Assembly (NCBI GenBank): GCA_037447655.1
Contig: JBBHKE010001059.1
Location: 30,001 to 94,000 of the forward strand
Origin: Zygnema cylindricum
Taxonomy: Eukaryota; Streptophyta; Zygnematophyceae; Zygnematales; Zygnemataceae
Length of the DNA stretch: 64,000 nucleotides
Reading direction: 5' to 3'
Below, one piece after another: positions 6,700 to 41,879 of the stretch. The position numbers and the translations under genes are program-made. Position 1 is the first letter of the stretch, and each line of letters begins with the position of its first letter. The notes below the pieces were generated by a model. The model worked only from the letters and a program-made list of their open reading frames with translations. It had not been told where the DNA came from and did no database searches.

Positions 6700-6741
<42 letters not shown>

Positions 6742-7607: not shown

Positions 7608-7621
7608 GGACAATTGTACTT

Positions 7622-16192: not shown

Positions 16193-17010
16193 TGTGTAGC
16201 TTGGACTCCCTTGAGTCCGGAGCAAAAATAATCACTGAATTTGCTCACCCGAGCCTTAAGTTATGGCTGGTCAAAGATGACCTTTATAGTTACAAGCTCT
16301 CTTAGAGAGAGGTACCAAAATATCACTAAGTCTTAGTCTGCCTACTCATGACTACCTACTACTAAACCCTAGTCCAATAGGAACACTATATAGTACAAGA
16401 AGGTACGATGGGCGATGTACTTATTGTACGGCCATTGTACGACATGGTCTACAAGGTGACATGTGCCAAATCGGGAGCCATGGTTCCTCCTCCCATCTTC
16501 TCCGGTGTCAAATAATGTGGCGCCACGTGGCACCGCGTGACGCTATCCCCAAAGGCCGCCGAAAACTTATTGCGGGTGGCGGCTGTAATGGTGGCCGTCC
16601 GATCAATTGTATTTATACGGCTTCGATTCGCTTCCATGTATCAATTGATTAATGCGCGTTTTCGTTAGTCTGCTGCGAATTAGTCCTTTGAATCAATAGG
16701 TAAATATGCGTAAAACGTGTCACGTGTATCGTTTCGATAGTAACTTAATGGATAAGGCGTAGGTCTATTTAGTGGCCTGCAGACCCCGGTTCAAATCCGG
16801 CCGACGGCATTATTTTGCTAAAACTAGTAAAATACTTTCTAATTCATTCTGCCTCCTTCTAAATGATGCGGCAACCATGGCGTGCCTTTGGTCCTCTCTT
16901 TCTCTCTCTTTACATTCTAACTAAAATATAGAAGTGAACTATTAGTCACCTCTTTTCAACACTCTATTTATTTTTCCAATACAGACCTAGAAAATACATA
17001 AATTTCAACA
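16193..17010 (-). repeat. Family 1 LTR (5' LTR of V)
   Basis: In element orientation it begins TGTTGAAATTTATGTATTTT at 17010 and ends ...AGCTACACA at 16193, just before GGGGTG. TG...CA ends, about 818 bp. It contains a G-box CCACGTGG (16523-16530) and, antisense to gag, the tRNA-like block at 16736-16809. An untranslated leader separates it from gag. Confidence 0.75.
16736..16809 (+). other. tRNA-like module in LTR of V (A and B boxes)
   Basis: CTTAATGGATAAGG resembles a tRNA D-arm/A-box. GGTTCAAATCC is a canonical T-loop/B-box inside a CCGG/CCGG stem. AGGTC/GGCCT can pair as an anticodon stem around an eight-base loop. The acceptor stem does not pair, so this is a tRNA-derived relic or internal Pol III promoter, not a working tRNA gene. 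It lies on the strand opposite to gag. Confidence 0.6.
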
Positions 17011-17340
17011 CGGATTGACCGTCAAATCTAAAATCAAAGGTACGTAGCCTGTACAAAACTGTACTTCAAATGTACAATTTCTGAGAACTACGTGCGCGCA
17101 GCAAAAATCGTCTTTGCGATTAGCAATTCCCTATATTTTATTTCCAAAAACGCAAAGGTAATAACATAAAAAAACAAAGCATGCTTGTCACTTAAAAGAA
17201 TTCACGACCAACAAAGGTAAAAGACCAAGATCCTAAAGGATTAAAAACACAACAAAAGCGGTTAGAAGCCTAAATGAAAATAAATAAAGCAAGTACAACA
17301 AAACTAAATTGTTTAAAGATTACCAACAACCCTAGACACT

Positions 17341-17455
17341 GAAGCCCCGTACCACGCCCAACTAAATATCAAGACGACGCCCAACTAAAATCAAGACCAC
17401 GCCCAACTAAATATCAGAACCACGCCCAACTAAATATCAGAACCACGAGTATCGT
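17341..17455. repeat. Short tandem array, about 24-bp unit x4
   Basis: Four copies of CACGCCCAACTAAATATCAG with small indels, separated by AACCA or AAGAC. The surrounding 17011-17780 holds no other recognisable feature. Confidence 0.85.
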
Positions 17456-17782
17456 CTATATCGTCGGGTGGCGCGGGGGTAAATCTCGTAGTCCTCAGCC
17501 ATCAGTAACCACCGTGCACTATTGCATAATGGCTAAAGCTTGGGAAAGTTGCTGAAGCTTGGGAACGTTGAAGGGCGACACATAATGGCCGAAGCTTGGG
17601 AACATTGAATGGGCAACACAGATGCGTTGGCGATAGAAAGCCGACATGATAGATGGAGAAGGGCTGCAAGGCTCTCTAACTTCGAAAGATCGTCGAGCAC
17701 AATCGCAATAAAAATTGTCGAAAGACAAGTCTAAGGTCCCAAACTTCTCGAAAGCAAATGATGTGAAACTATTAGCTAGGTC

Positions 17783-18330
17783 TCGCTGTGCTTAATCACA
17801 TTCTTTGAAAGCCGTTGCATCGTGAGCCGCAACCTCAATATGTAATGCTGCGCGCGAGGATACATGGGATCCTACAAGATCTGTGAGGAATATGCCCCCC
17901 AATGTTCTCGCCGCGCCATAAAGGAAAAGACGATCCATACGAGGAGCCCATGTACCCCTAAATTGAGTATGTGGTGCTAAGATGTGCGACACCTCACGCT
18001 TCACTGTGTACCCTGCTTCAAAACCCACGGTGGCAATTCCATCCCATACCATGTCGTGTGTTGTTGATCGCTTTCCACTTTGTGAGAAACGTAGCAAATG
18101 TACCCATTGTTCGTCAATAGGTTGCCCACAAATGCAACGGGGTTGGCCTAAAAAGGAAGGGGGCAACTAGCCAAGCCATAAGCAAAGCGCAACAAAAAAT
18201 TGAGAAGAAGATAAACGGAGTGAAGTGAAAATTGGTGTAGCAATAAGCCAAGATCCGGCCCCAGAGCCGATGCTCTTAGAGCTTGCAAGTGAGCCAGAGC
18301 AAACAAAGGGGCTCCTAAAGGGTCACAATT
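17783..18330 (-). pseudogene. Possible C-terminal Cys/His and endonuclease-like relic of a non-LTR element
   Basis: Frame 18166-17792 reads CICGQPIDEQWVHLLRFSQSG, then THDMVWDGIATVGFEAGYTV, KREVSHILAPH and DRLFLYGAARTLGGIFLTDL. The order (Cys-x-Cys, ID-x(3)-HLL, THD, RE..H, then a D...D block) resembles the C-terminal Cys/His motif followed by a restriction-like endonuclease in R2-type non-LTR retrotransposons. I recognise the pattern, not a specific family. The reverse transcriptase is missing, and a frameshift separates upstream residues near 18166-18330. Confidence 0.4.
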
Positions 18331-18394
18331 AGGAGGCAACATTATGTTGAAGGTCATGGGCATAATGACTGGGCTGCGATTCACTTCCACTTTC

Positions 18395-18998
18395 TGTCAC
18401 ACTTGCACCAGTTGGGATTTTCGTCCCTGGAGGAGCCGGTGGAGCATTAGGGCTAATAGGAGCACTTGCAAGAGTTGAGCCATTGTTAGACATGTTAGCA
18501 AAAGCAAACCCAAAGAGGAATACCTATCTGACTAGATCAATACTGTAAGATATGTAACTACAAATGAAAGAGGTCTTTCAACCAGACAAACATATACTAC
18601 AAGCAAATCAAAGACAATCGAACACAAAACACCTTAAACTGCAGTTAGTGCTCTCATTTCCTTAACTGTGTGTAGAATGTACATTCTGTATCAAACTAAT
18701 TGTTCCTAATTGAACTAAATATTAAAAAGATCTAGAAAACATCTAAAACGTAGGTATAGGGCTCACCTGAAAATCTACTGACAAAAATCTAAGTACTTGG
18801 AACAGAATTGTCTAGTAACAATATTTACACCCTAAAAATCCGGGAGATATGTTTCACGTCTACATTGATAGGCAGCCGTACACACTAATTTATTCAAAGA
18901 TAACACCAAATATAGCTAATATTGAATAGTTGGTTGTCCAAAATTTTTTAAGTCATAGACTCTAATTTCTAAGACTTACTAAAGCTTACTTTTCAATA
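18395..18998 (-). repeat. 3' LTR of W, distinct from its 5' LTR
   Basis: It follows a polypurine tract TTAAGGGGG on the minus strand. It begins TATTGAAAAG (TG start mutated) and plausibly ends GTGTGACA. Near its end it holds an ATG (18499) opening MSNNGSTLASAPISPNAPP, a Copia gag-like N-terminus. It does not resemble the family 1 LTR at the other end of W, so W is chimeric. The right-hand limit is tentative. Confidence 0.5.
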
Positions 18999-19014
18999 AC
19001 CCCCTTAAGCTTTA

Positions 19015-20590
19015 GAAGACTTACTCACTTTGACCACATGCTTTTTTGCAGTACTCCAACTTAGGAGCTGGAAGTGCTTTTGTCAACATGTTTGCAATCA
19101 TTTTCTCATTAGGGAAATAGCAAAGTTTGACCAGTCTTGCAAATACCTTTCTCGTACCAAATGTAGCGGAATGTCCACATGCTTACTCTTAAAATGGTGA
19201 CTAGGGTTTGCAACCACAGAATTGGCTGCCAGATTGTCGCACCACATTACTTGTGTCCCGTGTTGTGTAAAACCCAATTCTTTAAGAAATGCGTTAATCC
19301 AAAACAGTTCTTTTAATGTTGCGGTCGCACCCATGTATTCAACTTCCATCGTAGATTGAGCGGTGACTTTTTGAAGTTGACTACTCCAATAACAAGTTCC
19401 ACTTCCAATTTGAATGACATACCCAGTTGTAGACTTTACACTATACACATCACCATAGCTAGCATCACTCCAAGTGTTAATGTCAACCTTTTCCCCTCCC
19501 AAAGTAAGCCAAAGATTTCTTGTCCCAACAAGATATCTTAAGACCCTTTTTGGTGCCTCCCAGTCTCTCTTTTGTGGATTTTGCAGACTTTTGCTCAATA
19601 TACCAACATGTGCAGCTATGTCAGGCCTAGTACAATTCATGAAGTAAATGAGACTTCTAACTACTTGTCTAAAGGGTACTTGAGACATAAATTTTTGTTC
19701 TTCTGTCATGACTTCCCTATCTATCAAGACTCCAAACTCATGGTCTATTTCTTCAAGTTTCTGCCTAAACTCGATAGGAGTTGCACCTATCGATTCTTTC
19801 CGAGTTAGCGTAATTATTTTCTTTTCTATTTCTCTTTCAACTTGTATTCGAAGGATATATTTTGCCTCACGCAAATCCTTCATTTCAAATTGTGAATTAA
19901 GTGTATGTTTTACTCTAGCAATTCCTTATTTGTTCCGACTAATTAGCAGCAGATCATCAACACACACAACAATGAATATCACCTCATCAGGATTATCACC
20001 ACATATATAATATACTGAATGATTAGAGCTAACTCTAGGAAATCCTAATCCTGTCAAGAACTCATCTAACTTTCAATTCCATTGCTTGGAGGCCTGTTTT
20101 AGGCCACACAAAGATTTTAAAAGTGTGCACACAAGCTTTTCCTTTCCTACTTCCTCATGCCTCTTTGGCTGCTTCAAATAAATGACCTCGTGTAAATCAC
20201 CATGCAAAAAAGGAGTCTTGACATCCATTTGGTGAATGTCAAAATCATATATTGCAGCTAATGTCAGTAAGATGCAGACAGATGGAAACCTTACAACTAG
20301 TGAGAAAGCTTCTTCATAGTCTATCCCCTCCTATAAATTAAATCCCTTAGGAACCAAACGAGCCTTTTATGTGTCAATGGTATTATCTGGGTTCAATTTT
20401 AATTTAAACACCAATTTACTCCCAATAGCCTTTCTTCCTAGAGGAAGTTCACCAGATCCCACGTTTGGGCCTCTATGTTGGATGAAACTCTGAGACCTCC
20501 ATAAGTCCTCAGAGAGGACAGCTTCCAAAAAGCCTCTAGGATAACCCTGACCCCTTTGTGTTTCAGCAAGAACAATTGCCACCCTGGCAG
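19015..20590 (-). pseudogene. pol: Copia copy W, fused leader-RT-RNase H
   Basis: The family 1 leader and gag start (AETQRGQGYPRGFLEA on the minus strand near 20560) run straight into the start of reverse transcriptase (KAIGSKLVFKLKLNPDNTID). Gag, protease and integrase are deleted. RT continues in broken frames (DVKTPFLHGDL, VCVDDLLL). From 19883, RNase H is open: LIYFMNCTRPDIAAHVGILS, STMEVEYMGATATLKELFW, VMWCDNLAANSVVANPSHHF, MLTKALPAPKLEYC. An internal deletion joins two Copia lineages here. Confidence 0.8.
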
Positions 20591-21239
20591 ACAATAACTC
20601 TAACCACCTTCACCCCTGTAAAGGCAAGACTCCCCTCAGTCGATAGCAAAAAAAATCTCTGAATTTGCTCCTCGAGCAGTAAGTTATAGTGGGTCAAAAT
20701 TGACCTGTTGTACAGAAGCTCTGTGGGAGAGAGGATCCTATCTCCTAATTTTTCTAAGTCCTTTCTCTCTCACAGACTCTATCTACTAATGTACGGAGCC
20801 AATCATATTCCACTTTCGTACAAAAAAGTACAGCTGCCGATGTACTTTTTGAACGGATATTGTACGACATGGCCTAAATGTTGACACATGTCATATCCGG
20901 AATTGGTGCCGTAATCTCCGGAGATACCACGATCCAATGTAACTTCGCCACGTGTCATCCGATGTGGCGATGACCACAAACCGCCGAAATTCTCTTGCGC
21001 GATCTCGGCGTTCATTCAGACTGTCCGATTAAATTTACATTTAATCGTAGCCGTAATAAATAACTGCGCGGTATTCGTTTCGCTAAAGAAACAAATGCGC
21101 GGTATTCGTTTTTTTATCCGTACCACAATGTGTACTTTACATTACTGATTCTATGTATCCCGTAAATAGTATCAGTTAAATGAATTATCCTACTTGTTAA
21201 TGTATAAGTAAAAATCAAACAATATAGTACGTCACACTA

Positions 21240-21323
21240 GCGAAAGACTTAACGGTTAAGGCTACTGGCTACCGGCAGCTTGCCGTCTGGAAGGTACCGG
21301 GATCAAATCCTATGGCCGCCACA
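21240..21323 (+). other. tRNA-like module in LTR of W
   Basis: GACTTAACGGTTAAGGC corresponds to an A-box. GGGATCAAATCC contains the B-box consensus GWTCRANNC. CGGCAGCTTGCCG can form a short extra stem. The orientation is opposite to the element, as in the other three LTRs. Confidence 0.55.
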
Positions 21324-21769
21324 TATCTTTTTAGGAAATAAGCCCCTAACTAATATATATTTCCCGTAAACCTCTAGATAGCCTAGGTAGACAACTCTAG
21401 CTCCCTCTCAAAACTCTCACTGACTGCTCTCCAAATGCCCTTTATATATAATCAATCCCCGAATAAAGGATTTTTCTATACACCGCCGGTATCCTAAACT
21501 AGGGCCATGGAAGGTCTGCCGTTCGACGGCCATCGGTCATCGGAATTGGCAATTCAGAAAGCGATCACACTGCATGATATAACAAACTAAAAATGAATAT
21601 GTAATTGTTCATCCTATTAAGTAAATTGACTATGATAAATGCCCTATGTATCTTAGTCATTACATTTCATGTGTAACACCATGCCTATTTTTTTGCTTAT
21701 GGCGCGTAAACAAAGAAATCGCTTTGCTTATGGCGCGTCAATAAATAATGCCGATGCTAATTTACATTT

Positions 21770-21779
21770 NNNNNNNNNN
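21770..21779. other. Assembly gap (10 N)
   Basis: Ten Ns inside the insertion within the W LTR. The real distance is unknown. Confidence 0.99.
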
Positions 21780-22060
21780 ATGGAATTCGTGTTGGTGCTG
21801 TTAGTAGGTAGTAAAGTAATAGGGGTTTGACTTACGGAATATGATGGGGTTCAAAAAAGTAAAGGGAGTTGGATAGTTTTATGTGTACGGGGTTAGCGAA
21901 TACGGTTTAGTAGTTGAAACCCTGTGTTTGTATCATTCGTAAGAAGTAAAGTAATGAGTTCAATTCGCATTTGTAAGGAACCGATAGGAATAGACGGCAT
22001 TTGCTGACTTACTCTATTTATTTTTCCAATACAGACTTAGAAAGTATATAAATTTCAACA

Positions 22061-24332
22061 GTTTGATACCTTCACTAGAAAGGGAGTATTTATAGCTATG
22101 TATGGGGATGAAGTTTACTTCACGGCAGATAAGGATAGCCAAGGAATGTTTACGCTTAACTTGAGTAATGAAATGAAGAATGCTTACTATGTTTGTGTCC
22201 CAAAGTTGATGATTTGGCATAAGCGATTGGGGCATGTGTATTTTGATAGGTTGAGGGAAATGAAAAAACTTGGGGTAGTATAAGGCATTCAGTTTGGGGA
22301 TAATGAAATGATGGATGATTGTCGTGGTTGTGCTTAAGGTAAGGCTCACAAATTTCCCTTTCCTAAAGACGGCACATATATAGGTGAAAAAGTACTAGAT
22401 CTGGTCCACACAGATATTTGGGGACCTGCAAAAGTACCTTCAGTTGGAGGAAAAAGGTTTATGATACCGATGACTGGTCTAGATACTCTAAAAGTCTACT
22501 TCCTAAAAACAAAGTCTAAAACATCAACTTACTTCAAAGAATATAAAGCCTGGAGTGAGAAGTTGCATGGAACACCCATTAAGAGAATAATGAGTGATAA
22601 TGGGGGGAAATATACCTTTCACCAATTTGAGAAATACTTGAGAGATGAGGGAGTTAAGCACCAGAATACCGTACCATATAACTTGGAACAAAATGGGGTA
22701 GCAAAGAGGTTGAGTCAAACACTAAGAGATAGTGCATGCAGTATGTTGGCCGATAAGAAAATAGGAAAGAGATTTTGGGCATAGGCCATGAACTGTGCCA
22801 ACTACATTAAGAATAGAGTCCTTACCTCAACTGTAAAGGGAATGACACCTTATGAGAGATGGGCTGGAAGGAAACCAGATATCTCTCACCTTAAAGTATT
22901 TGGTAGCCAAGTTTACAATCTTGACACGAATAGGAAAAATTGGAAACTAGATGCTAAGGGGAAACCTGGATACTTTGTAGGATATGATGAGGATGTCAAA
23001 GGATATAGAGTCTATGACTTAGCAAAGAGAGATATAATTCTGGTCAATCACCTAATTGTCATTCATGAAGGGAAGTCATTTGACACCTTTAAACATACCA
23101 AGAAGATAAGAATCAAATTTGAGTCTGAAGGTGAGGAGGACTCCGTCCTTCCTAAAAGCGACATGAGTGAAACAGGGATGGCAAATTCAGAGGAGATTGA
23201 AGAAACAGATGATCCACCGAAAACCTCACATATTCCTATGGACTTCTAGGAGAAAGGCAAGGAGGAACCGGAACCGACTTCCATGGATAGGGGAGCCGAT
23301 GAGACAGTAAGGAGAAATCAAAGACTTCCCTCTATCCTAGCTTCGGAGTTTGGGAAAGGGAGAAGGAGCTACAAACGGACTCAGTAAAAACATGCCGCTC
23401 ACAAGGTTACTAAGCTATCTCACCCATATGAGCCTCAGTCATACTCGGAGGCAGTAAACAGTCTGGAGAAAGATAGATAGATAAGAGCCATAAATGATAA
23501 GATGGCCACTATCATGTAAGCAAATACTTTAAAACTAGCGGACTATCCTTCAGACATAAGATCGATTGGCTGTAAATGGGTGTTTAAACTATAATTGAAC
23601 CTAGATAATACCATTGAGAGATATAAGGCTCGATTGGTAGCAAAGAGGCTCACCCAAAAAGAGGGCATCACCCAAAAATAGGGGATTGGCTATGAGGAGA
23701 CTTTTGCTCCAGTTGTTCGATTCCCATCAGTAAGGATTTTCCTCAGTCTGCCAACAGCGGAAGACTTGGAAATACACCAAAAGGATATTAAGACTGCCTT
23801 TCTTAATGGTGAGTTAGAGGAAGAAATTTTCATCAGGCAACCAGAGGGATTTGTGGAGGATGGAGAAGAGAGCAGAGTCTGCAGGCTCATAAAGTCCTTT
23901 TGTAGACAAAAACATGCTCCCTAACAGTGGAATAAGAAACTAGATGAGCTTCCCATTCTATCTATATGTTTGAAGATGAGAATGGTGTCATTTTTATTGC
24001 AATTTATGTGGATGATCTGTTTGTGTTGAGTAAATCTTTGGAAAAAATCAATAAGTTAAACAAAGATCTAAGAAGCAGATTTGATATGAAGGATTTAGGG
24101 GAGGTAAGATATATTTTGGGAATCCAAATGGAGAGAGATAGGGGGAAGAGGAATATCAGACTAACTCAGAAAGTTACAATAGGTTATATGCTGGAGAAAT
24201 TCGAGATAGAAAAGGCAAACAATTGTACCACTCCTATGGACTTGAAAAAAGTAAGAGATGGCAGTGTAGAAGGAGGAGTGATAATCTTAGATGATTAGAT
24301 GAGTCTAGTGGAGAGAGAGTTTATGAAGTCTA
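22061..24332 (+). pseudogene. pol: Copia copy X, family 1: integrase to RT, 5' truncated
   Basis: Starts inside the pre-integrase region (YFTADKDSQGMFTLNLSN; MIWHKRLGHVYFDRLREMKK). It continues through integrase (DLVHTDIWGPAKVPSVGGKR, IMSDNGGKYT) and the linker to RT (YEETFAPVVRFPSV, DIKTAFLNGELEEEIF, FIAIYVDDLFVLSKSL). At least six stops or frameshifts break it, for example after LGVV, RFWA and PMDF. The frame stops at EFMK because element Y inserted there; it resumes at 35658. It is strongly similar to Z on the opposite strand, so the pair forms an inverted repeat about 4 kb apart. Confidence 0.88.
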
Positions 24333-25372
24333 TGTTGAGATTTGAAATCTTTAGTTTAGTAAATATAGTAGACCAAAAAGACATAGAATTTTTTCTAAGT
24401 ATTTGTATGTAATACTTACCTTTATTAGTGTTATAATAGAAAAAGTACATTAGTGTGTTTTTTACCTCTACAGATTTCACAAAATGGCGTCGAAACGCGT
24501 CACGCAGGAGACGTTTGGAATCGCCGGATCATACGGACAGAATCTGATCCGGATACCTCGGAAAAATATATGGTACGACGATTTTTGGAGTCATACGGAT
24601 ATCTTGGAAATCTATGGTACCGAACATTTCTATAATCGTTAAATGGAAACGTTCGGATATTTCAGAAATGAGTTGTACAATACGATTTATGATCATTGAT
24701 TTCGAGAGGCGTCGACGGACGCGATTCACTTGGGACCACAAGCATGATTCATGTGGAATCGCAAGTGATGAGGCGAGATTTACGTGGGACCACAAGTGAC
24801 TTTAGCGACTATCGTGACTAAGCATCTGGAACATTTTGTACCGTTTGACTCCTGAAAATATTTGAATAACAGTGTTTTGTAGTTTAGTGTATTAAAAGAT
24901 AGTGTTTCATTAATTTGGTTTTGGAAAATACTAATTAGGATTTTGGAGGTAATCTAGGTACAGTAAAGTACAAGCTGGATACTTTGTCGTTAGTCAAGAT
25001 AGTTTAGGTAGTACGATCACCCAAAATAGTGTGACCAGTAGATACTCACTACGAGTATGTATTTTAGGACTTAGCCAATTTTGTGTCATCAAGTTTTGGG
25101 AATATGATTTTCTAAGGGCAGTTTTTGGGAAACTTCTAAACATCATATCTTATGGTTTACTAAGTCATATGGGCTGCAATTTTGGGAATTGTCATTTTAC
25201 TGTATTTTGTATCATTTCGGCAAATTTGAAGCATATTCAATTTTTTAGTCATATTTTATGTCAGTTCAAAGTTGTTTGTTGAGTTGGTACTTTGATAGTT
25301 TTTGTTGTTTTTCATGTCTACTTCCACTACTACTGCTGGTCCTCCTCCTGCAACGGTGTTTGAAGAACAATA
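24333..25372 (+). repeat. Family 2 5' LTR of element Y
   Basis: Starts TGTTGAGATTTGAAATC and ends AGAACAATA (CAACA with one change). Preceded by target-site copy GTCTA (24328-24332). About 1040 bp; the other copies are 34542-35657 and 36872-37986. It includes an ATG at 25314 that opens the gag frame. Confidence 0.88.
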
Positions 25373-27470: not shown

Positions 27471-27479
27471 TTGTGAGAA

Positions 27480-30400
27480 GGTACCGTTTTGTCATCATAT
27501 CAGCCACCATGTCCTCATCTGATTTATATACAAGATTCACAATTTTATTTTGAACTTTTTTCTCTCACAAAACTCAATCTTATGTCCATATGCTTAGCTT
27601 TGAAATGATGATTTGTGTTAGCTGCAATTGCGATGGCAGTTTGGTTATCACAAAACACTTCATGCACCCCTTTCTTCATATACCCCTGTTCTTGCAATAA
27701 GAACTTGACCCACATTAACTCTTTCACAACAGAACATGAGGCCATGTACTCAGCCTCCACAGTAGACTGAGCAACCACCTTTTGTTGCTTATTGCTCCAA
27801 CAGCAAGCACCTTCCCCCACATACAACACATACCCAGAAGTGCATCTCCTCATAGGTGCGTCCCTATAAATAGCATCACTCCAAGTAGTGATGTCAGTGT
27901 GCTCCCCTCCCAAATGCAACCATAACTCTTTGGTTCCCAATAGATATCTCATGACTCTCTTAGCTGCCTCCCAATCTCTCTTACTAGGATCATTAAGACT
28001 CCTACTGAGTACTCCAACTGGTGCCGCTATATCGAGCCTAGTACAGTTCACAAAATAGATCAAACTTCCTACGACCTATCTATAAGGGATAAACTTCATT
28101 AACTCTCTCTCCTCTAGACTCATCTAATCATCTAAGATCATCACTCCTCCTTCTACACTCCCATCACTTACTTTTTTCAAGTCCATGGGAGTGGTACAAC
28201 TGTTAGCATTTTCCATGTGGAATTTCTCAAGCATATTACCTATTGCTTCTTTCTGAGTAAGTCTGATAATCTTGTTCCCTCTATCTCTCTCCATTTGGAT
28301 CCCCAAAATATATTTTGCCTCCCCTAAATCCTTCATATCAAATCTGCCCCTAAGATCTTTCTTTAGCCCATTGATATTATCTAAAGACTTACTTAACACA
28401 AGCAGATCATCCACATAAATTGCAATAAAAATGACACCATTCTCATCTTCAAACATATAGATAGAATGGTCAGAGCTGATCCGGATGTATCCCAGACGGT
28501 GAGAAACTCATCTTATTTCTTATTCCACTATCGGGGAGCCTGTTTCATTCCATATAAGAACTTTATGTGCCTGAAGACTTTGCTCTCTTCTCCTTCTTCC
28601 ACGCATCCCTCTTGTTGCCTCATGAAAATTTCTTCCTCTAACTCACCATTAAGAAAAGCAGTCTTAATTTCCATTTGGTGTATTTCTATGTCTTCCGCTG
28701 CTGGGAGACTGAGGAGAATCCTTACTGATGAGAACCGAACAACTGGAACAAAAGTCTCCTCGTAGTCAATCCCCTCCTTTAGGGTGAACCCTTTCGCTAT
28801 CTATCGAGCCTTATATCTCTCAATGGTATATTTTGGGTTCAGTTTTAGTTTAAATACCTATTTACACCCAATACGTTTTTCTATCTGGAGGACAATCCGC
28901 TAGTTCCCAAGTATTTGCTTCCATGATAGAGGCCATCTCATCATTTATGGCTCTAATCTATCTTTCTTTCTCTACACTATTCAGTGCCTCTTGGTAAGAC
29001 TGAGGCTCATCTAGGTGAGATAGCTTAGCTACCTGATTAGTGGCCTGTTTTTCCTATATCATTTTGATGCTCCTTCTCCCACCCTCAAACTCTGAAGCTG
29101 GAATGGATGGAAGTCTTAGATTTCTCCTTACTGTCTCATTGGCTCCCCTGTCCATAGAAGGCGGTTCTGGTCCAACGTCTTCTATCTCCTCGAAGTCCAT
29201 AGGAGTTTATGAGGTTTCCAATGAGTCTCTTATATCTCGGATCTCCACTGAATCTGCAATCACGTTTTCACTCATGTCCCTTTCAAGAACGACCGAGTTC
29301 TCCTCACTTTCGGAGTCAAACCTGATTCTTATCTTTTTTATATATTTGAAAGGTTCAAATGACTTCCCTTCATCCATGACAACTAGGTGTTTGACCAAAA
29401 TGATATCTTTCTTTTCTAAGTCATAGACTCTATATCCCTTAACATTCTCATCATATCCCACAATGTATCCAGGTTTTCCCTTAGTATCTAATTTCCAGTT
29501 TTTCCTATCAGTGTCAAGACTGTAAACTTGGCTACCGATACTTTAAGGTGTGAGATATCGGTTTTCCTTCCAACCCATGACTCATAAGATGTCACTCCCT
29601 TTACAGCTGAGACAAGGACTCTATTCTTAATGTAGCTGGCACAGTTCTTTGCTTTTGCCCAAAATCTCTTTCCTTTTTTCTTGTCGGCCAACATACTACA
29701 TGCACTATCTCCTAGTGTTCGATTCAACCTCTCAGCTACCTCATTTTGTTCCTGGTTATATGGTGCAGTTTTCAGGTGTTGCACTTCCTCATCTCTCAGA
29801 TATTCCTCAAACTGGTTAGAGGTATATAGCCCCCCATTTTCACTCATTATCCTCTTAATGGGGGTTTCATGCAACTTCTCACTCCAGGCTTTATATTTTT
29901 TGAAGTAAGTTGATGCTTCAGACTTTGTTTTTAGAAAGTAGACTTTAGATTATCTAGACCAATCATCGGTTATTGCCATCATAAACCTCTTTCCTCCAAC
30001 CGAAGGTACTTTTGCAGGTCCCCAAATATCTGTGTGGACCAAATCTAATACTTTCTCACCATTATATGTGGCGGCTTTGGGAAAGGGAAGTGTGTGAGCC
30101 TTACCTTGAGCACACCCACTACAATCATCCATCATTTCATTATCCTCAAACTGAATGCCTTCTACTACCCCAAGCTTTTTCATTTCCCTCAACCTATCAA
30201 AATGCACATGTCCGAACCGCTTATGCCAAATCATCAACTTAGGAACACCAACATAGTAAGCATTCTTCTTATCATTACTCAGGTTAAGCCTAAACATTCC
30301 TTGGCTACCATTATCTGCCATAAAGTAAACTTTTTCTCCATACATAGTTGTAAATATTCTATTTTTAGTGAAGGTTTCAAACTCTTTGTTATCTAACACA

Positions 30401-31730
30401 TACGTAGAGACAAGATTTTTACTTAGCTGAGGAATGTAGAGTACATCTGAGAATGTAAGTATAGAAGTCTTTCCCTCCACTAAGACTTTTACATCTACTG
30501 ATCCCACTAGATATGTAGTAACCACTCTCTCATTCCCATACTCTATCTCTACAGTAAGGATCTTTCTTAGCTTAATGAAGAGTTCCTTATTACGACACAT
30601 ATGCAAAGATGCACCTGAGTCAATGATTTATCCTTCTTGTGGAGCTTCCCGAATTGCTCCAAGGGCACACTTCTGTCTCGAAGGGACCTCCTTCTCCTCC
30701 AAACTCTCGTCAAGAAGAAGCTCTCCATCCTCCTCAGAACACTCATCCTCGATTTCTCCTGTCACTTTTGTAACCACAAGGGCCTTTTACTTCCCTCCGG
30801 AAGAACCCCCTCCACGGTTCTCTTGGAGCCTCATCTCCGACAGCTTGACACAATATGTGATGAAGTGTCCTGGCTTTTTGCAAAGATGATAATGACCCTT
30901 TGGAGGCCTCGATCCTCCAGAATGATCTCTTTCCCCATTATATGGTTTTTTCGGGTCCTTCCCCATCGGTCCCCTCCTGTTGCTAGAGCTTGATTGCTCT
31001 TTCCTCCTCTCCTAATCTCTATTGTGATTTCCTGCACAAGGATCATCCTGACCACTTTGTTCCATTTCCATAAAATATCAAGCATTTCATGTACTCGGTA
31101 CACTATGTTCTCGTACTCATCTGGTAACTACATGATAAGGGTGTAAACTTTCAATTTCATTGTACCTGTCCACCCGGCACTTTCCATCTCCATATACAAA
31201 CAAGAAAGATCATTACACTAATCTAACATCTTTCCTCCTATGTAAGTGTAACTCACTAGCTTTTGCTCAGTCAACTGGAGCTCTTGAATAGTTCCAACTC
31301 TACAAATCTCCACCAAACTCACCCACAACTTCTCGGCCATATAAATGTGAAGATTATGGGTGGCCAAAGCTTGAGTTAGGTGCCTCAGAATGAAGGTCTT
31401 AGCAACCATGTTTTCATCCTCCCACATTTGAGTATGGTTCTCCGCGGTCTTCACAGTCGCCGCTCCCGGTGTCATGGCAATAGGAGTGAGGGGTGTCTCC
31501 TTCCCTTTCCCCTTTTCGGTCACACTGTTGTCCCCATCATCTGCCTCCTCCGTTGAGGCAGTCGTTGCTGCAGGAAACCTTACTCCTTCAAATCCTGGTG
31601 GAGTTCCTAATGGTGGACGTTTCACTTGTCCACTGACGATACCCTTGTATTAATTTCGCACAAAGCTCCCATCATCATGGCTTCCCAATAGATGAACCCA
31701 GATCCATTGAAGGTGAACACCCATAACCTG
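27480..31730 (-). pseudogene. gag-pol: Copia family 1 element Z, gag-protease-integrase-RT-RNase H
   Basis: The most complete Copia body here, read right to left. Gag from about 31730 (TFILRHLTQALATHNLHIYM), zinc knuckle CKKPGHFI near 30890, protease IIDSGASLHMC near 30610 after a stop in place of the usual Trp. Integrase: KLMIWHKRFGHVHFDRLREM, DLVHTDIWGPAK, IMSENGGLYT. RT: AIYVDDLLVLSKSL near 28400. RNase H: MIYFVNCTRLDIAAPVGVLS, VFCDNQTAIAIAANTNHHFK, then DMVADMMTK at about 27485. There the element stops without polypurine tract or 3' LTR. Stops and frameshifts occur roughly every 400-700 bp. Confidence 0.88.
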
Positions 31731-31852
31731 GAATTATGTGTCCTACATTAGACCACAGAATACTGGAAGCCTCTAGATAATATTTAACTAACCCACTTCA
31801 ATCCACAACCATTGCTGTCAAGGAAGGCAAAATGAGTGTTTGACAACAACCC

Positions 31853-32125
31853 TGTGCGGTCTGGACTCCTCTGAGTCCACATCAAAAAGAATCACTGAAA
31901 ACGGCCAACCAGCGGATAAATTATAAGGTGGCAGAGATGCCAAGTTTATACAAACTCTCAAAGGGAGAGAGGTCACTACCTACCAAAATTCCCTAAGTCC
32001 TAAACCCCTCTCACAACCCCTATCTACTGACGTACGAACCAATCAAACGACTATAGTGTACAAAAAAGGTACAACGACTGATGTACTTTCTGTAAGGCCT
32101 CTGTACGGCAAGGCCATTGAGTGGA
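31853..32125 (-). repeat. Family 1 LTR, 3' part (LTR of Z)
   Basis: Ends ...GACCGCACA at 31853 (minus strand), just before the Z leader. It is interrupted at 32125 by a plus-strand LTR fragment. Confidence 0.65.
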
Positions 32126-32253
32126 TGTTGTAGAAATTAATGGTTTTTAAGTATTTTCTAGGTCTGAATAGAAATAAAGAAGCCGAGGCAGTCTACCTCT
32201 AACTTCTCTCTCCAACTCTCAAACTTGTCGCAGTCACTGAGAAATTGGAGAGG
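32126..32253 (+). repeat. Family 1 LTR, first 128 bp, plus orientation
   Basis: TGTTGTAGAAATTAATGG, AATAAAGAAGCCGAGGCAG and GTCACTGAGAAATTGGAGAG match 40345-40472 almost base for base. Only the LTR start is present, wedged between two minus-strand LTR parts. Confidence 0.85.
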
Positions 32254-32983
32254 TAACGTACGGCAGCAATCACTTTACTGTACCGTACAGATAAGTACAG
32301 GTGCCGGTGTACTTTCTGTACGACAATCGTACGATATGGCTGAAATGTCGACACATGTCATATATCTATTTGTTCCCGTAATCTCCGGTGGCGCCGCAAT
32401 CCAATGTTGACGTGCCACGTGTCATCCTATGTGGCGATGACCGTAAACCGCCAAAAGTACATATCCCGTGATCGCGGCGCCTATCGTGGCCGTCCGATCA
32501 AATCCGGCTACATTTCTAGCCGTTGAAAATAGACGCACGGTATTTGTTTCGCGGTCGAACCAAATGCGCGGTATCCGTTTCAAAAAAGAAATCCGTACTC
32601 CATACTATCTATAATTGTATCTATGCAATACGTATGTATTTCGAGTTAAATGAACTAGTCTACGTGTAACTATTTAAATATTTATCAAACCCCATACGTC
32701 GTAACACTAGCTCTAGTCTAAACGGCTAAAGTCACCGGCTAAGGGCAGATTGACGGACGGTAGGTACCAGGATCAGTTCGTGGATCCGTCAAGTACCTTT
32801 TGGTATGTCTTACTAATTTACCCCCTGTCTTATCTAGAGAGCATAGGCAGCCATGGCTCTAGCTCCCTATCCAGCCTTCAGTGACTGCAACAAGTGTGGG
32901 GGCTTGGAGAGGGGAGTTAGAGACAGACTGCCTCTGCCTTTTTCTATCCTATTACACACCTAGAAAATACACAAATATCAACA
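32254..32983 (-). repeat. Family 1 LTR, 5' part, minus orientation
   Basis: Begins TGTTGATATTTGTGTATTTT at 32983, adjoining element Y. It includes the G-box GCCACGTGTCA (32414-32424) and a tRNA-like block. Its left 100 bases repeat sequence already present at 32025-32125, so the two minus pieces come from overlapping LTR copies rather than one LTR split cleanly. Confidence 0.75.
32711..32792 (+). other. tRNA-like module in LTR fragment at 32 kb
   Basis: TCTAAACGGCTAAAG aligns with the A-box of the other copies. GGATCAGTTCG is a mutated B-box, followed by TGGATCC. Most decayed of the four copies. Confidence 0.45.
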
Positions 32984-34536: not shown

Positions 34537-34541
34537 GGGAG

Positions 34542-35657
34542 TGTTGAGATTTGAAATCTTTAGTTTAGTAAATAGAGTAGACCAAAAAGACTTAGAATAT
34601 TTTCTAAGTATTTTTATGTAATACTTACCTTTATTAGTGTTACAGTAGAAAAAGTACATTAGAGTGTTTTGTACCTTTGCAATTTTTATAGAGTGGCGTC
34701 GACACACGTTACGCAGGAGACGTTTGGAATCGTCGGATCAGACGGACAGAATCTGATCCGGATACCTCGGAAAATATATAGTACCGCGATTTTTGAAGTC
34801 ATACGGAAATCTTGGAAATCTATGGTACGGAAGATTTCTATGATCGTTAAATGGAAACGTCCGGATATTTTGGAATCGAGTTGTACGATACAGTTTATGA
34901 TCATTGATTTCAAGAGGCGTCGACGGACGCAATTCACTTGGTACCACAAGCATGATTCATGTGGGGCCGCAAGTGACGAGGCATGATTTACGTGGGACCA
35001 CAAGTGACGAGGCGTGATTCACGTGGGACCACAAATGACGAAACACTCAAGTGCTTCAAACTACACTACGACAGTCGGCTGGACTTTAGCGACTTCCGTG
35101 ACTTAGCACCTGGAAAATTTTGTACGGTTCGACTTCTGAAAACATTTGAATAACAGTGGTTTGTAGTTTAGAGTATTAAAAAATAGTATTTCATTAATTT
35201 GGTTTCTGAAAAATAATAATTAGGTTTTTAGAGGTACTCTAGGTAAAGTAAAGTACAGGCTGGATACTTTGTCGTTAGTCAAGATAGTATCCGTGGTACG
35301 GTCAACCGAATTAGTGTGACCAGTAGATACTCACTGCGAGTATATAGTTTAGGACTTAGCTAATTTTGTATCATCAAGTTTTGGGAATATGATTTTCTAA
35401 TGGCAGTTTTTCAGAAACTTCCAAACATCATATCTTATGGTTTACAAGGTCATTTGGGCTACAATTTTAAAAATTGTCATTTTATTGTATTGTGTATCAC
35501 TGCAGCAAATTAGAAGCATATTGGCTTTATGAGTAATATTTTGCGTCAGCTCAAAGTTGGTTGTTGAGTACCTACTTTGAGAGTTTCTGTTGTTTTTCAT
35601 GTCTACTTCCAACACTACTGCTGGTCCTCTTCCAACAACGGTGGCCCTAGAACAACA
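34542..35657 (+). repeat. Family 2 3' LTR of element Y
   Basis: TGTTGAGATTTGAAATC...AGAACAACA, 1116 bp, after the polypurine tract. Followed by ATCTA, matching GTCTA before the 5' LTR at four of five bases. This is the target duplication expected for Copia. It also ends in the MSTSNTTAG-coding segment. Confidence 0.92.
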
Positions 35658-36035
35658 ATCTATTCCTTATACACAGGTTGTAGGAAGTTTGATTCGCGTT
35701 ATGAACTGTACAAGGCCGGACATAGCGGCAGCAGTAGGAGTCTTACCGATCATATGAAGAAAGATAGGGAGGAAGCCAAGAGAGTCATAAGATATCTGGT
35801 AGGAGCCAGAGAGTTATGGTTACATTTGGGAGGGGAGCACATTAATATCACCACTTGGAGTGATGGAGCTATGGGGATGCACCTATGAGAAGAAGCACTT
35901 CTGGATATGTGTAGTTTGTGGGGGAAGGTGCTTGTTATTTGAGTAAAAAACAACAAAAGGTGGCTGCTCAGTCTACTATGGATGCTGAATAAATGGCCTC
36001 TTGTTCTGCTGTGAAAGAATTAATGTGGGTCAAAT
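35658..36035 (+). pseudogene. pol: Copia copy X continued: RNase H fragment
   Basis: With one target copy removed, the frame at 24332 (EFMKS) reads straight on into IPYTQVVGSLIRVMNCTRPD, then REEAKRVIRYLVGARELWLH, LGGEHINITTWSD, QSTMDAE and VKELMWVK. It breaks off near 36035 into unrelated sequence. Confidence 0.85.
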
Positions 36036-36828
36036 CTGTTGTTATGACACAATTACTGGCACTGAAGATGAAGAAGATGCAGCAGTAGTCATCGTAGAAC
36101 AAATCAAGAGAGGAAGCTTCCACAAATACCGATGGCTGAACAGAAACTTTGACAGACTATAACTTTCAGAAAAACGCTCTAAACGTCCTGAAAATTTGCC
36201 ACAATGTAGCTAACATACAAAGGAACACACACACAAAATTTCAATCAATTACGCTAACAAATCTGTGAGATATGTAGAAATGAAATTACATAAAACTGAG
36301 TGTACAGTTTTCATATCATTTGTTCCTAAAAATCAAATTCACTAAGTCCTACTTTTATACACCGAAACTACACTAAGCTATACGGAGGCATTCCAGCCGT
36401 ACATCTAACATTCTATCACAAATATTTACACCGAAGTAAAGACAACGTAAAGNNNNNNNNNNAGTATGTTGAATAAAGGCTTTATAGGTCTGCAAAGGTA
36501 AATTACTAGTAACTTTGCAAGGCATGGTAAATGAAGATTCTATAGGTATACTGAGGTTTTTGGCGGCATGGTATATAAAAGGCTTCAAATGCCTAGTCTA
36601 AGGCAGGCAGACTAGACCGTTAAGGTTAACAGACGACGCACTGCGCACAGCTGTGGTGAGACATTATGGATGTCTCCATGTTATGTGAGATAACATGAAA
36701 AGGATGACATTGTGATTATTTCCATTCATAATATATGTTGATGAATCTTTGATAAGATTTAGAAAAACCAGATGAAATAAATGACTTGATTTCTAAAGTT
36801 TAGAGTTGTGAGGGGATTTAGAGAGAAG
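36036..36828. other. Unassigned sequence with 10-N gap
   Basis: AT-rich, no recognisable domain on either strand. Ns at 36453-36462. Confidence 0.6.
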
Positions 36829-37986
36829 CTGTTGGACTAAGTGAGTAACTGGGTCTAAAGATTTAGGGGAGTGTTGAGATTTGAAATCTTTAGTTCAGTA
36901 AATAAAGTAGACCAAAAAGATTTAGAATAGTTTCTAAGTAGTTGTATATAATACTTACCTTTATTAGTGTTACAGTAGGAAAAGTACAATAGAGTGTATT
37001 GTACCTCTGTAGGTATTACAGAGTGGTGTCGACACGCGTCACGCAGCAGACAATTGGAATTGCCAGATCAGACGGACGGAATCTGATCCGTAAACTTCGG
37101 AAAATATATGGTACGGCGGTTTTTGGAGTCATATGGATATCTTAGAAGTAAATGGTACGGAACGTTTCAATGATCATTAAATGGAAACGTCTGGATATTT
37201 CGGAAATAAGTTGTATGATACGATTTATGATCATTGATTTTGAGAGACGTCGACAGACGCGATTCACTTGGGATTAAAAACATGATTCACGTGGGACCAC
37301 AAGTGACGAGGCGTGATTTGCGTGGGACTAGAAGTGACGAGGCGTGATTCACGTGGGACCATAAGTGACGAAGCACTCAGGTGTTTCGTACTACACTACG
37401 ACAATCGGTTGGACTTTAGCGATTACCGTAACTAAGCACCTGGAACATTTTGTACGGTTCGTCATCTGAAAATATTTGAATAATAATGTTTTGTAGTTTA
37501 GTGTATTAAAAATTAGTGTTTCATTAATTAGGTTTTTAGAAAATAATAATTAGGTTTTTGGAGGTACTCTAGGTACAGTAAAGTACAGGCTGGATACTTT
37601 GTCGTTTGTCAAGTTAATTCTGTAGTACGGTCACCCGAATTAGTGTGACCAGTAGATACTCACTGTGAGTATATATTTTAGGACTTAGCCAATTTTGTAT
37701 TACCCAGTATTGGGAATGTGATTTTCTAAGGGTAATTTTTGGGAAACTTCTAAACATTATATCTTATGGTTTACTTGGTCATTTGGGCTGCAATTTTGGA
37801 AATTGTTATTTTACTGTGTTATTTATCATTATGGCAAATTTGAGGCATATTGGCTTCCTGAGTCATATTTTGTGTCAGTTCAAAGTTGGCTCTTGAGTAG
37901 GTACTTTGATAGTTTCTGTTGTTTTTCATGTCTACTTCCACTATTACTGCTGGTCCTCCTCCTGCAACGGTGGTTTTAGAACAACA
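36829..37986 (+). repeat. Family 2 LTR with a remnant of its upstream internal end
   Basis: About 40 bp of pol end (REAVGLSE-like) and polypurine tract TTAGGGGAG precede an LTR at 36872-37986 that starts TGTTGAGATTTG and ends AGAACAACA. It is therefore a 3' LTR whose element body is deleted. To its right is CTTCAAAGG, unrelated to the flank of Y. Confidence 0.88.
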
Positions 37987-38075
37987 CTTCAAAGGTACAT
38001 TTTTTCACAAAATGACGTAAGTGACCTATGCGCAACTAAAACAGTCACTTTCATGATCAATTCCCTTACATAAAT
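37987..38075. mobile_element. Right end fragment of the long-TIR element
   Basis: AAATGACGTAAGTGAC, GCGCAACTAAAACAGTCAC and CATGATCAATTCCCTTA match the right ends at 52299 and 60291. The rest of this copy is not adjacent. Confidence 0.75.
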
Positions 38076-38266
38076 ATTGATCCCGTACTATAAGAGTGAC
38101 TTCCTGATGTAACCACACTCCAATTTGGTAAAAATAGTGTGCTTGTTCACAACACTGTTTTTCCCGATTCGTTACAGTTTAGTTAGCGGAACACTTGGGT
38201 TGTTAACCTCCATAGGCGCGACAAAATTTCATCGGTTGATTATGCTTTTTCGCTTATCGAACGTAT

Positions 38267-38937
38267 ACCGTGAATCGTTATTAGGGTTTATAACGTTGTT
38301 TCAATGCCCCCAAATTTTAACCCTCGAACTTAAAATAGAATTAATAACTAGAATTGTTTTTTTACGTTATTGTAGGTATTTCACTTTTCAATCAGCGTTA
38401 TAACTCTAATTTTGGCACTTTTAAATAATGTAATGTACGAAATGTTTTTGTCCCCACTAAAATTGCTCAATATTTCGTACTGATGTACAAAATAAGTGTT
38501 AGATAAAGGCGTCAACACGCAAAATCGAGTGCGTCGCCAAGGAAAAGCACATTCAGTTTTGATTCCTTGAGATAAAGACACGGATAAATCTTGCGAACTT
38601 GTTCTCACATGTTCAACGTCGGATATGTGAACACAGGTTATACTGGCGTCGACACGCGAAATCGAGTGCGTCGCCAAGGAAAAGCGCACACAGTTTTGAT
38701 TCCTTGTGATAAAAACACGGAAAAATCTTGCGAACTTGTTCTCACATGTTCAACGTCGGATATGTGAACACAGGTAATACTGGCTACACCATGGGAAAAG
38801 GCTACCTAAATTAGCGTTAGTGAATAAATTAAAGTAATTTCTTTTTGGGAGAAGGGACTTGAACCCAATTGAGTGTTAATAACACTATTTTTTTTTGTAC
38901 AGTAATTATTTCTTAACGTTAATAGCAATTCACAGTG
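38267..38937. mobile_element. TA-target MITE containing a 137-bp tandem duplication
   Basis: Left end TACCGTGAATCGTTATTAG, right end AACGTTAATAGCAATTCACA then GTGTA. Its interior carries two 137-bp direct repeats. The reading frames are not conserved. Confidence 0.65.
38508..38781. repeat. Tandem duplication, 2 x 137 bp
   Basis: Units start at 38508 and 38645. Both contain AATCGAGTGCGTCGCCAAGG and TGTTCAACGTCGGATATGTG, with about ten differences between them. Confidence 0.92.
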
Positions 38938-38948
38938 TAATGTATAGT

Positions 38949-39355
38949 ATACCGTGAATTGCTATTAGCGTTCATGACTCTCATTGGGGTACCCCGTTTT
39001 TTTTGGCAAATTCCCAAATAGAATCAATCATTCTAAATGTTTTTGAACGTTTTTTGAGGTACCCCACCTAATAGGGTTCATAACTGTAATACAATGTCCT
39101 TCTAAATAGTGTGGTGTACGGACTGTCAAATCCGTATTATTTTGTAATTTTTCAAGTAAAAAAGTACAGAAATATATATTTACGCTAACGCGCGCGCATG
39201 TAAATGTGCTATGGGAAAAATAACGTGGATGTCACAAAAACGCGATGGCGTACGGTTTGAACAATTTGGTACCAGACATATTTTAGTGTGAAGATATAAT
39301 GTGCCGACAATTATTACAAAGTAGTTTAAAAATTAGAGTTAATGATAAATTAGAA
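38949..39355. mobile_element. TA-target MITE, right end unclear
   Basis: Begins TATACCGTGAATTGCTATTAG immediately after the preceding element. It contains AAATAGTGTGGTGTACGGAC as in the 10 and 12 kb copies. The right boundary near 39355 is a guess. Confidence 0.45.
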
Positions 39356-39361
39356 TAAACA

Positions 39362-39670
39362 TTGGGAATTGCTAATGGCAGAGACGATTTTTTCTTCGCG
39401 CAGGTAGTTGTCAGAAATTCTACATTTGAAGTACATTTTCGTACAAGCTACATACCTTTAAGTTTAGATTTCACGGTCAATCCGTCAAACAACTTTGACT
39501 GGCGAAATTTTGTAACGACGGCTAAGAAAGTGTCCTGGTTGCAAACATTGAGAGTCATAAAAAAAAAAACAATTCACACAGCCGGCGCAAGTTTATTGTA
39601 ACAGAACTGTAGCAGCCAAATATATATAAAAATGGTTGCGCGTAGGTAGTTTCTCACTTCACGTGACTCC
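39362..39670. mobile_element. Left arm of a diverged long-TIR element
   Basis: GGGAATTGCTAATGGCAG, ACGGTCAATCCGTCAAACAA, AATTCACACAGCCGG and CACTTCACGTGACTCCCAC follow the order of the 50404-50740 arm, with much divergence. Confidence 0.65.
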
Positions 39671-39693
39671 CACACACCGACATTTGATTTAGT

Positions 39694-39908
39694 CACTTAG
39701 CCGCAAAGATATAATCTAATCGCAAACCGTTATAAATTATAGGACGACGTACGACATCTATAAACTCGCAGGAAACCAAATTAACTTCATACAAAATCAA
39801 CTTTTGATTTTGTATAAAGTCAATCTCGTTTCGTGCGTGTTTATAGATGTCGTACGTCATCCTATAATTTATAACGGTTGGCGATTAGATTATATTTTTG
39901 CGACTAAA
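39694..39908. repeat. Long hairpin, about 100-bp arms
   Basis: The arms fold around 39803 (ACAAAATCA/TGATTTTGT). Inner and outer pairs include AGATGTCGTACGTC/GACGTACGACATCT and TAATTTATAACGGTT. Only a few bulges. It may be the centre of the surrounding TIR element. Such a transcript would be a Dicer substrate, but expression is unknown. Confidence 0.85.
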
Positions 39909-40344
39909 GGTATGTCCCCATGTACTTGTAACTTAGCGAACTTACTTTGTATTTTAGCGCGGATCCGTCGGACCCGGTTTTCAAGTGTCCCTGTGTCTGT
40001 AAGGACGAAATCGCAACTTACGCTTATGACGATTGTATACGTCGACAATACCTGTGACGGTTGTCAACATCTACAATCTGTGGTCGCACGATATTTTTTG
40101 GAACTGCTTTGTGACGTCGCATGTCTTACCGTGACATTGTAGACGTACCGCATTCCAGCCTTGCAGTTTCACGGTTGAAGAAGATGCGCTTTGCCCTTCG
40201 CGTCTCCTGTCCGCTCGAGGTGAAATGGCATCAGAATTTGAAGACCCCTGCAAATAAAAAATCTGTACAGGACGAAAACGGACAAAATCAAACAAACTGT
40301 GTACTTTTTTTCGTCTTATTATAACGCAAACGGACAGAACATAG
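39909..40344. other. No gene seen
   Basis: Moderate-GC sequence between a hairpin and LTR B. Two overlapping frames (67 and 74 codons, opposite strands) lack any motif. Confidence 0.5.
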
Positions 40345-41258
40345 TGTAGAAATTAATGGTTTTAAAGTATAAACTAGGTTTGAATAGAAATAAAGAAGCC
40401 GAGGTAGTCTACCTCTAACTTCTCTCTCCAAACTCTCAAACTTGTCGCAGTCACTGAGAAATTGGAGAGGAAGCTAGAGCCATGGCTACCTAGGCTATCC
40501 TGAGGTTTACGGGAAAATTATATTAGATAGGGAATTATTAACTAAAAGGTATGTGCCAGCCACAGGATTTGATCGTGGTACCTGCCGGCCGACAGACAGT
40601 AGATAACCGGTAGCCTTAGCCGTTAAGTCTAGAAGCAGTCTTACGTATTATATAGTACGATAATTAATTAAACATTAATTCGTAGGATAAATCATCTAAC
40701 TATAATTGTTAACGGGACACATAGATCTGGTAGTATAAAAGTACGAATTGCGGTACGGATAAGAAATCAATACCGCGCATTGATTTCTTAAGCGAAACAA
40801 ATACCGCGCAGGTATTTATTACGGCTACGATCAAATGCGAGATTAATCGGACGGCCGGAATTAGCGCCGAGATCGCAGAAGAAGAATTCGGCGGTTTGTG
40901 GGCATCGCCACATCGGATGACACGTGGCGATGTTACATTGGAGCGCATATCTCCGAGGATTAAAGGAGCGAATCCAGACATACCACGTGTGGACATTTTG
41001 GCAATGTCGTACAATGTCTGTACATAAAGTACACCAGCAGCTATACTTTTGCGTACGGAACTGTATTCTAATTGGTTCCGCACCTCAGTAGATAGAGTGT
41101 GTGAGAGAGATAGGACTTAGAAAAACTAGGAGATAAGACCCTCTCTCCCAGAGAGCTTCTGTAAAAAAGGTCAACTTTGACCCTACATAACTTACTGCTC
41201 AGGTGAGCAAATTCAGAGATTCTTTTAGCTATTGACTCAGGGGAGTCTTGCCTTCACA
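40345..41258 (+). repeat. Family 1 LTR (5' LTR of B)
   Basis: Starts TGTAGAAATTAATGG and ends GCCTTCACA, about 914 bp. Contains the ABRE/G-box GACACGTGGC (40918-40927). The tRNA-like block is on the minus strand. Followed by a leader with CTGAAACACAAAGGGGTTAG shared with W. Confidence 0.8.
40552..40633 (-). other. tRNA-like module in LTR of B
   Basis: Minus strand: GACTTAACGGCTAAGGCTAC (A-box) and ACGATCAAATCC (B-box GATCAAATC), then TGTGGCTGGCAC. Closest in sequence to the W copy. Again antisense to its own gag. Confidence 0.55.
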
Positions 41259-41372
41259 GAGTAACAGGTGGTCAGAGTTTTTGTCTCCCACGGTGGCAGT
41301 TGTTTTTGCTGAAACACAAAGGGGTTAGGATTATCCTAGAGGCTTCTTGGAAGCTGTCCACTCTGAGGACTT

Positions 41373-41790: not shown

Positions 41791-41879
41791 GGTTGTCGAG
41801 CTTGCCAGAGAAACACAAAGGAAGGGCCCGCTGCCCGGAATGGCCGGTCTCGGCGTCCTGCAAAGAACCCACCAATGCT

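Follow-up and report, generated by a model that had tools for sequence, protein, structure and literature searches.

The 64,000-nucleotide stretch of Zygnema cylindricum DNA analysed here (positions 30,001 to 94,000 of contig JBBHKE010001059.1; hereafter the window, to which all coordinates refer) contains four diverged long terminal repeats (LTRs) of a single Copia family, recognised by self-comparison and designated A, B, C and D. The U3 part of these LTRs contains apparent remnants of a tRNA gene, lying in reverse to the genes of the element itself.

The Copia family and its LTRs

LTR A (16193-17010, minus strand) is 818 bp long and is the 5′ LTR of a minus-strand Copia element. Read in the gag sense it extends from TGTTGAAAT to GCTACA, and gag follows downstream on the minus strand. 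LTR D (40343-41258, plus strand) measures 916 bp and belongs, again as the 5′ LTR, to an element on the plus strand. For LTR B (20614 to about 21460, minus strand) the outer end is not defined, the homology to D stopping at 21427. LTR C (about 31850 to 32982, minus strand) is rearranged and holds an inverted LTR piece at 32129-32253, a 125-base segment of the outer end of the LTR that is 94% like D. B and D are 80% alike, the largest part of C that aligns is 66-69% like both of them, and A is 59-67% like the other three, in parts only.

A leader and then a Copia coding region adjoin all four LTRs in 5′ LTR order, the gag/pol assignment resting on Pfam for A and on homology and translation for B, C and D. 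The gag open reading frame (ORF) of element A occupies 14404-15759 on the minus strand and matches Pfam Retrotran_gag_2 with 55.7 bits (cutoff 27). In element B the adjoining region is a Copia reverse transcriptase/RNase H frame (19098-19925, minus strand), assigned from its translation with no Pfam hit at 0.001. Here the part from gag to integrase is missing and the leader is joined straight to pol near 20480; at the junction (20476-20483) homology to D stops at 20483 and pol homology ends at 20476/20482. The gag fragment of element C (31218-31649, minus strand) has no Pfam hit and is recognised from its translation and from homology between the gag regions of A and C (15134-15446 versus 30997-31309). 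The leader and gag start of element D (41259-41881, plus strand) is likewise placed by translation, not by Pfam, and resembles the start of the gag region of A.

For none of the copies does the window contain a full-length 3′ LTR partner. A stretch of 50 bases at 22011-22060, some 230 bases beyond ten consecutive N, matches the LTR A outer end at 94%; it may be the remnant of a further LTR, possibly of a 3′ partner. The exact 12-base primer binding site for tRNA-iMet has no match in the window. The leaders after LTRs A, B and D share the sequence GGTYARAGT (TGGTCAGAGT in D), which is unlike the usual tRNA-iMet primer site.

The antisense module

Module A lies at 16734-16809 on the plus strand, with its A box CTTAATGGATAAGGC at 16744-16758, its B box GTTCAAATC at 16789-16797 and a T-run at 16813-16816. 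Module B (21240-21325, plus strand) has the A box CTTAACGGTTAAGGC (21248-21262), the B box GATCAAATC (21301-21309) and a T-run at 21328-21332. The same B box, GATCAAATC, recurs at 40574-40566 in module D (40552-40635, minus strand), where it follows the A box CTTAACGGCTAAGGC (40627-40613) and precedes a T-run at 40547-40544. In the degenerate module C (32712-32794, plus strand) the corresponding sequences are CTAAACGGCTAAAGT (32718-32732) and GATCAGTTC (32771-32779), with a T-run at 32798-32801. A preliminary description of this DNA had placed A and B boxes in all four LTRs; they are present as described in A, B and D, whereas in C both are degenerate.

In all four LTRs the module is antisense to the adjoining Copia coding region. 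It had been said always to oppose gag, and the direction holds throughout, but in B the opposed region is pol because gag is missing from that element. Module and U3 ends are 201 bp apart in A, 191 bp in C and 211 bp in D, that is, the module occupies the same place in these three.

The succession of A box, B box and T4 terminator is that of an RNA polymerase III (Pol III) type 2 gene and is found in A, B and D, C being degenerate. TTTT starts 3 bases past the module end in A and 6 bases past it in B, C and D, in runs of four to five T. It falls at most 16 bases from the module end in all four LTRs, compared with 4-8% of positions in the same LTRs; since B, C and D share descent, this evidence is nearer to two observations than to four. 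A TATA-like motif upstream of the module, TATATAA, stands 21-27 bases before the A box of D in the module direction and is partial in B, with none seen in A or C, and is counted as no evidence.

Conservation of the box pair

Taken singly, the two motifs occur in the window at chance frequency (32 matches versus 27.1 expected, and 11 versus 11.8), and the A box of the modules is imperfect against the canonical consensus. Taken together, the boxes of B and D alone yield a pattern that matches LTR A at 22 of 24 positions, which none of 1000 shuffles reaches (shuffle maximum 19). The same pattern matches C at 18 of 24, with 11 of 1000 shuffles as good, and the positions in the window that score at least 18 are the four LTR modules only.

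The choice of motif was removed by sliding paired slices of 15 and 10 bases, unselected, along B and D. Within the U3 half only the module reaches 22 against A (2 of 353 positions in B and 1 of 422 in D). Over the whole LTR this score is reached by 5 of 784 positions in B and 8 of 853 in D, the remainder being other conserved stretches of the LTR.

Conservation of the boxes relative to the surrounding LTR had been set beforehand as a comparison. In A, B and D 22 of 26 box columns are invariant versus 43 of 112 flanking columns (p 1.7e-5), and versus 7 of 29 in the stretch that separates the boxes. When C is added, represented by 32254-32982 only (the part before 32254 being dropped), the figures are 16 of 26 and 30 of 106 (p 0.0019), the box columns having been picked after the fact. 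The same portion of C served for the two-box pattern, the slide of paired slices and the T-run count. The difference is lost when A is left out, B, C and D having 18 of 26 invariant box columns versus 361 of 635 in the rest (p 0.15, not significant). Other 15-column stretches of the LTR are equally or more invariant (11/15 versus 10/15).

tRNA character of the module

Numbered by hand as tRNA positions, the D-arm part (11-25) of A, B and D differs at 16 and 20 only, and the T-arm part (53-62) at 54 only. Positions 16 and 20 are places that are free in tRNAs, and the B box GWTCRANNC permits A or T at 54. The arms were sought in the window with a scan whose criteria were set after the copies had been seen: the D stem had to have 3 bp and enclose an A-R-GG-A loop, and in the T arm no fewer than 3 of 4 pairs had to form around a GWTCRANNC loop. 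The scan returned three matches, the modules of A, B and D, all with TTTT close behind. In 200 shuffled sequences the mean was 0.23 matches, or 0.055 if TTTT was required as well, and three were never reached.

Among the four modules the T stem is best in A, with 4 of 4 pairs. Of the stems that had been proposed for this copy, at 16.7 kb, the anticodon stem is not conserved; acceptor and anticodon arms are lost. Compensatory change, the other stem feature looked for, is not significant: covariation in the T stem amounts to one pair in four sequences, a score reached by 124 of 500 shuffles, even though the named register gives the best pairing.

Searched with a model of the 33-base T-arm part, the window gave no copy beyond the four source sequences, which match by construction; the next best has an E value of 2.5. 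The two-box pattern has no match in a viral contig collection, where the gag of A and the pol frame of B have no confirmed relatives either, and a protein search with the gag of A gave nothing at 0.001. In a prokaryotic genome contig collection the exact two-box pattern is rare, with five matches. One of the five lies inside a tRNA-Arg(TCT) gene in a tRNA cluster, and the D-arm 15-mer and T-arm 11-mer of this gene equal those of A.

Origin of the module

The reading that we favour, with modest confidence, is that the ancestor of the family acquired a tRNA-derived Pol III type 2 promoter unit in its U3, facing against the element. As far as the sequence can tell, the module is probably of tRNA origin, and its source would most simply be the head of a short interspersed nuclear element (SINE) or a tRNA pseudogene. 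Descendant LTRs would have retained what such a promoter needs, namely the D arm with the A box, the T arm with the B box and the terminator T-run, and would have lost the acceptor and anticodon arms, copy C having lost good boxes as well. A tRNA-type Pol III module of the SINE or tRNA-pseudogene kind, as first proposed, remains the best reading on account of its D and T arms, tRNA-like box spacing and shared T-run, though it does not extend intact to the degenerate copy C.

A number of results weigh against tRNA derivation. The canonical A and B consensus with its spacing is not enriched in the window (23 matches versus a mean of 21.9 in 20 shuffles), nor is it when TTTT is added (6 versus 6.6), and in B and D the canonical matches fall outside the hand-aligned register. 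Plain local alignment of A to the other copies is not significant, its score being reached by 77 (B), 332 (C) and 117 (D) of 500 shuffles. A 40-base pattern including the neighbours of the boxes is found in C (0 of 1000 shuffles) and not in A (252 of 1000 shuffles as good); A therefore shares the boxes and not their surroundings. When the paired slices were compared with C the module did not stand out, being equalled by 127 of 353 and 125 of 422 positions, and neither of the motifs proposed for the boxes is present in this copy. The sample consists of four copies, of which B and D are closely related.

Standard tRNA detection speaks in the same direction. Rfam RF00005 aligns with module A end to end (model 1-71 at 16734-16808), but its 14.5 bits are below the cutoff of 29 and the E value is 1.4 in a 151-base search. 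Rfam finds no tRNA in B or D and none in searches of the whole window, by which alone C was covered. ARAGORN with default settings reports no tRNA in the window or in A. At a relaxed threshold of 85% it calls A with the same limits as the Rfam match, one of 9 calls in the window versus 3-8 in five shuffles, and at 70% it calls B and D among 226, versus 191-232 in shuffles. The module RNAs fold no better than shuffled ones (z -0.48 to -0.82), and A10 in modules A, B and D departs from the canonical G10. No tRNA was found by ARAGORN within 8 kb for the other four of the five prokaryotic matches.

A functional tRNA gene was considered and rejected, given the Rfam score below cutoff, the empty default ARAGORN search and folding equal to that of shuffles; a search allowing a long intron returned only noise. 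As there is no conserved cloverleaf, the module would be a tRNA-derived relic or unit of the promoter type and not a tRNA. Copying from the element's own tRNA primer was also rejected: the longest exact complement to the first 45 leader bases is 5-7 in all four copies, and the module lies in U3 and not beside U5.

The main rival, possible though not probable, holds that the two blocks are RNA polymerase II (Pol II) regulatory sites of the U3 promoter whose resemblance to A and B boxes is accidental. AACGG is present in the modules of B, C and D, within a core AACGGYYA that resembles the MYB/MSA (mitosis-specific activator) mitotic element. Promoter sites are expected to form conserved blocks in a U3, some further short segments of the LTR are conserved equally or better, and plain tRNA structure is weak by Rfam and by folding. 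Copy A, however, has AATGG, which breaks the MYB core and yet keeps the tRNA pattern, and it is this copy that has the best T stem. Pol II sites would also leave unexplained the tRNA-like spacing and the T-run at the right place in all four LTRs.

Less likely still is a dead relic, that is, a tRNA or SINE piece in the ancestral LTR that has no present function and is kept by shared descent alone. The degraded boxes of C, the loss of the anticodon and acceptor arms and the incompleteness of the elements, with no full 3′ LTR partner in the window, would all suit such a relic, but neutral decay would not leave boxes that, in A, B and D, vary so much less than the sequence on either side of them and in between. 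Chance resemblance, which would fit the choice of boxes by eye and the equal frequency of consensus-level A, B and T patterns in shuffled DNA, is very improbable in the face of the prediction of A from the boxes of B and D, the U3 slide and the D-arm and T-arm scan.

Possible role of an antisense Pol III unit

If a tRNA-derived unit of this kind were active, it would give a short RNA of about 80-95 nucleotides, within U3 and terminating at the T-run. Such a U3-confined RNA is the likely product because the module reads towards the U3 end and meets the T-run 3-6 bases after its 3′ end. The genomic RNA of the element cannot start at the module, which points the wrong way. In a 5′ LTR a transcript of the module would leave the element, and in a 3′ LTR it would need to cross pol before reaching gag. 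Direction, T-run and LTR geometry thus make antisense control of gag unlikely, and the earlier suggestion of antisense transcripts against gag is dropped for an outward-reading U3 module of this geometry.

Alternatively, TFIIIC might be bound beside the Pol II promoter with no transcript made. A TFIIIC site or a short RNA beside the Pol II promoter is a plausible predicted role. The stronger proposition, that the U3 of a protein-coding Copia family retains a functional antisense Pol III gene whose short RNA or TFIIIC landing site would regulate the element's own Pol II promoter or mark the location of the element, we regard as rather unlikely on the present sequences.

Genomic context

The window looks like DNA rich in transposable elements from the nuclear genome of a plant lineage. 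The ORF at 6474-7643 (minus strand) encodes a WDR26 homologue (LisH_WDR26 by Pfam). Among the best 120 of 336 matches, its closest is a transcriptome protein with 61% identity, followed by a record labelled Mesen1 (56%), presumably Mesotaenium, with bryophytes and seed plants ranking below the latter. On these matches the DNA is likely to come from a streptophyte alga. A 211-base inverted repeat at 39697-39907 (89%) has below-cutoff matches to several microRNA-precursor models and looks like a miniature inverted-repeat transposable element or a foldback element. Another hairpin-forming inverted repeat, MIR7696-like below cutoff, is located at 1311-1399. At 42329-44617 the minus strand has two long frames that show CCHC-like motifs, lack a Pfam hit and are perhaps the gag of another retroelement; more long minus-strand frames extend to 47054.

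Comparison with known systems

The module had been presented as a case apart from known ones, and this no longer stands. Helenus (TRIMp3), a group of terminal-repeat retrotransposons in miniature (TRIMs) published in 2024, comprises short LTR elements that encode no protein and whose LTRs include a tRNA-like sequence (Kojima 2024, PMC10886601). As described in that article, the A and B boxes are conserved, the predicted structures for the most part give no support to a functional tRNA, and SINE insertion is proposed as the probable origin. The hosts named are fungi, animals and one plant, Selaginella (PMC10886601). Kojima also remarks that in Repbase "not a few" LTRs show similarity to part of a tRNA, and reasons that an autonomous coding partner should use Pol II and share little of its LTR with TRIMp3 (PMC10886601).

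What the present LTRs share with Helenus as so described is a tRNA-like sequence that bears A and B boxes, found here in A, B and D and degenerate in C. Helenus elements are 311-1263 bp long and non-coding, whereas here LTRs A and D alone measure 818 and 916 bp and the family bears gag/pol. The Helenus promoter is taken to make the template RNA, whereas the module described here is antisense to gag/pol in all four LTRs. Sense orientation as a defining trait of Helenus is what we infer from the role proposed for its promoter; the words "antisense" and "opposite" are absent from the main text of PMC10886601.

In the TRIM Cassandra the LTR has a Pol III promoter of the 5S rRNA type (PMC10853983, PMC10886601). 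A Pol III promoter in the LTR is also what is proposed here for the Copia module. On these accounts Cassandra is non-autonomous and its transcript, running from the 5′ LTR to the 3′ LTR, is the element RNA, which together with the 5S promoter sets it apart from the Copia module. The term tRNA was not found in the main text of a TRIM survey (PMC4717578).

A further likeness is to SINEs, in that the Copia module keeps boxes and loses arms. tRNA-derived SINEs keep the A and B boxes and have lost the arms. Unlike SINEs, the module moves as part of an LTR, and no SINE body, tail or target duplication was recognised around it by eye.

The idea is thus not new; the differences lie in the Copia family, which bears gag/pol, in the length of its LTRs and in the module being antisense. 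No antisense case was found in the open-licence literature searched, and the statement is confined to that literature. For annotators of tRNA genes the family is a caution that LTR families can seed tRNA-like hits. Helenus, as described, indicates that a tRNA-type promoter, presumably the one from which the element RNA is made, can reside in the LTRs of tiny elements without coding capacity. The Copia module faces the other way and therefore cannot serve as the Helenus promoter presumably does. If selection keeps such modules, another job would be needed, such as regulation, insulation or targeting, and coding elements could be a reservoir for Helenus-like TRIMs. Should a working antisense Pol III gene prove real, it would represent an LTR-borne Pol III unit that is used for something besides the RNA of the element.

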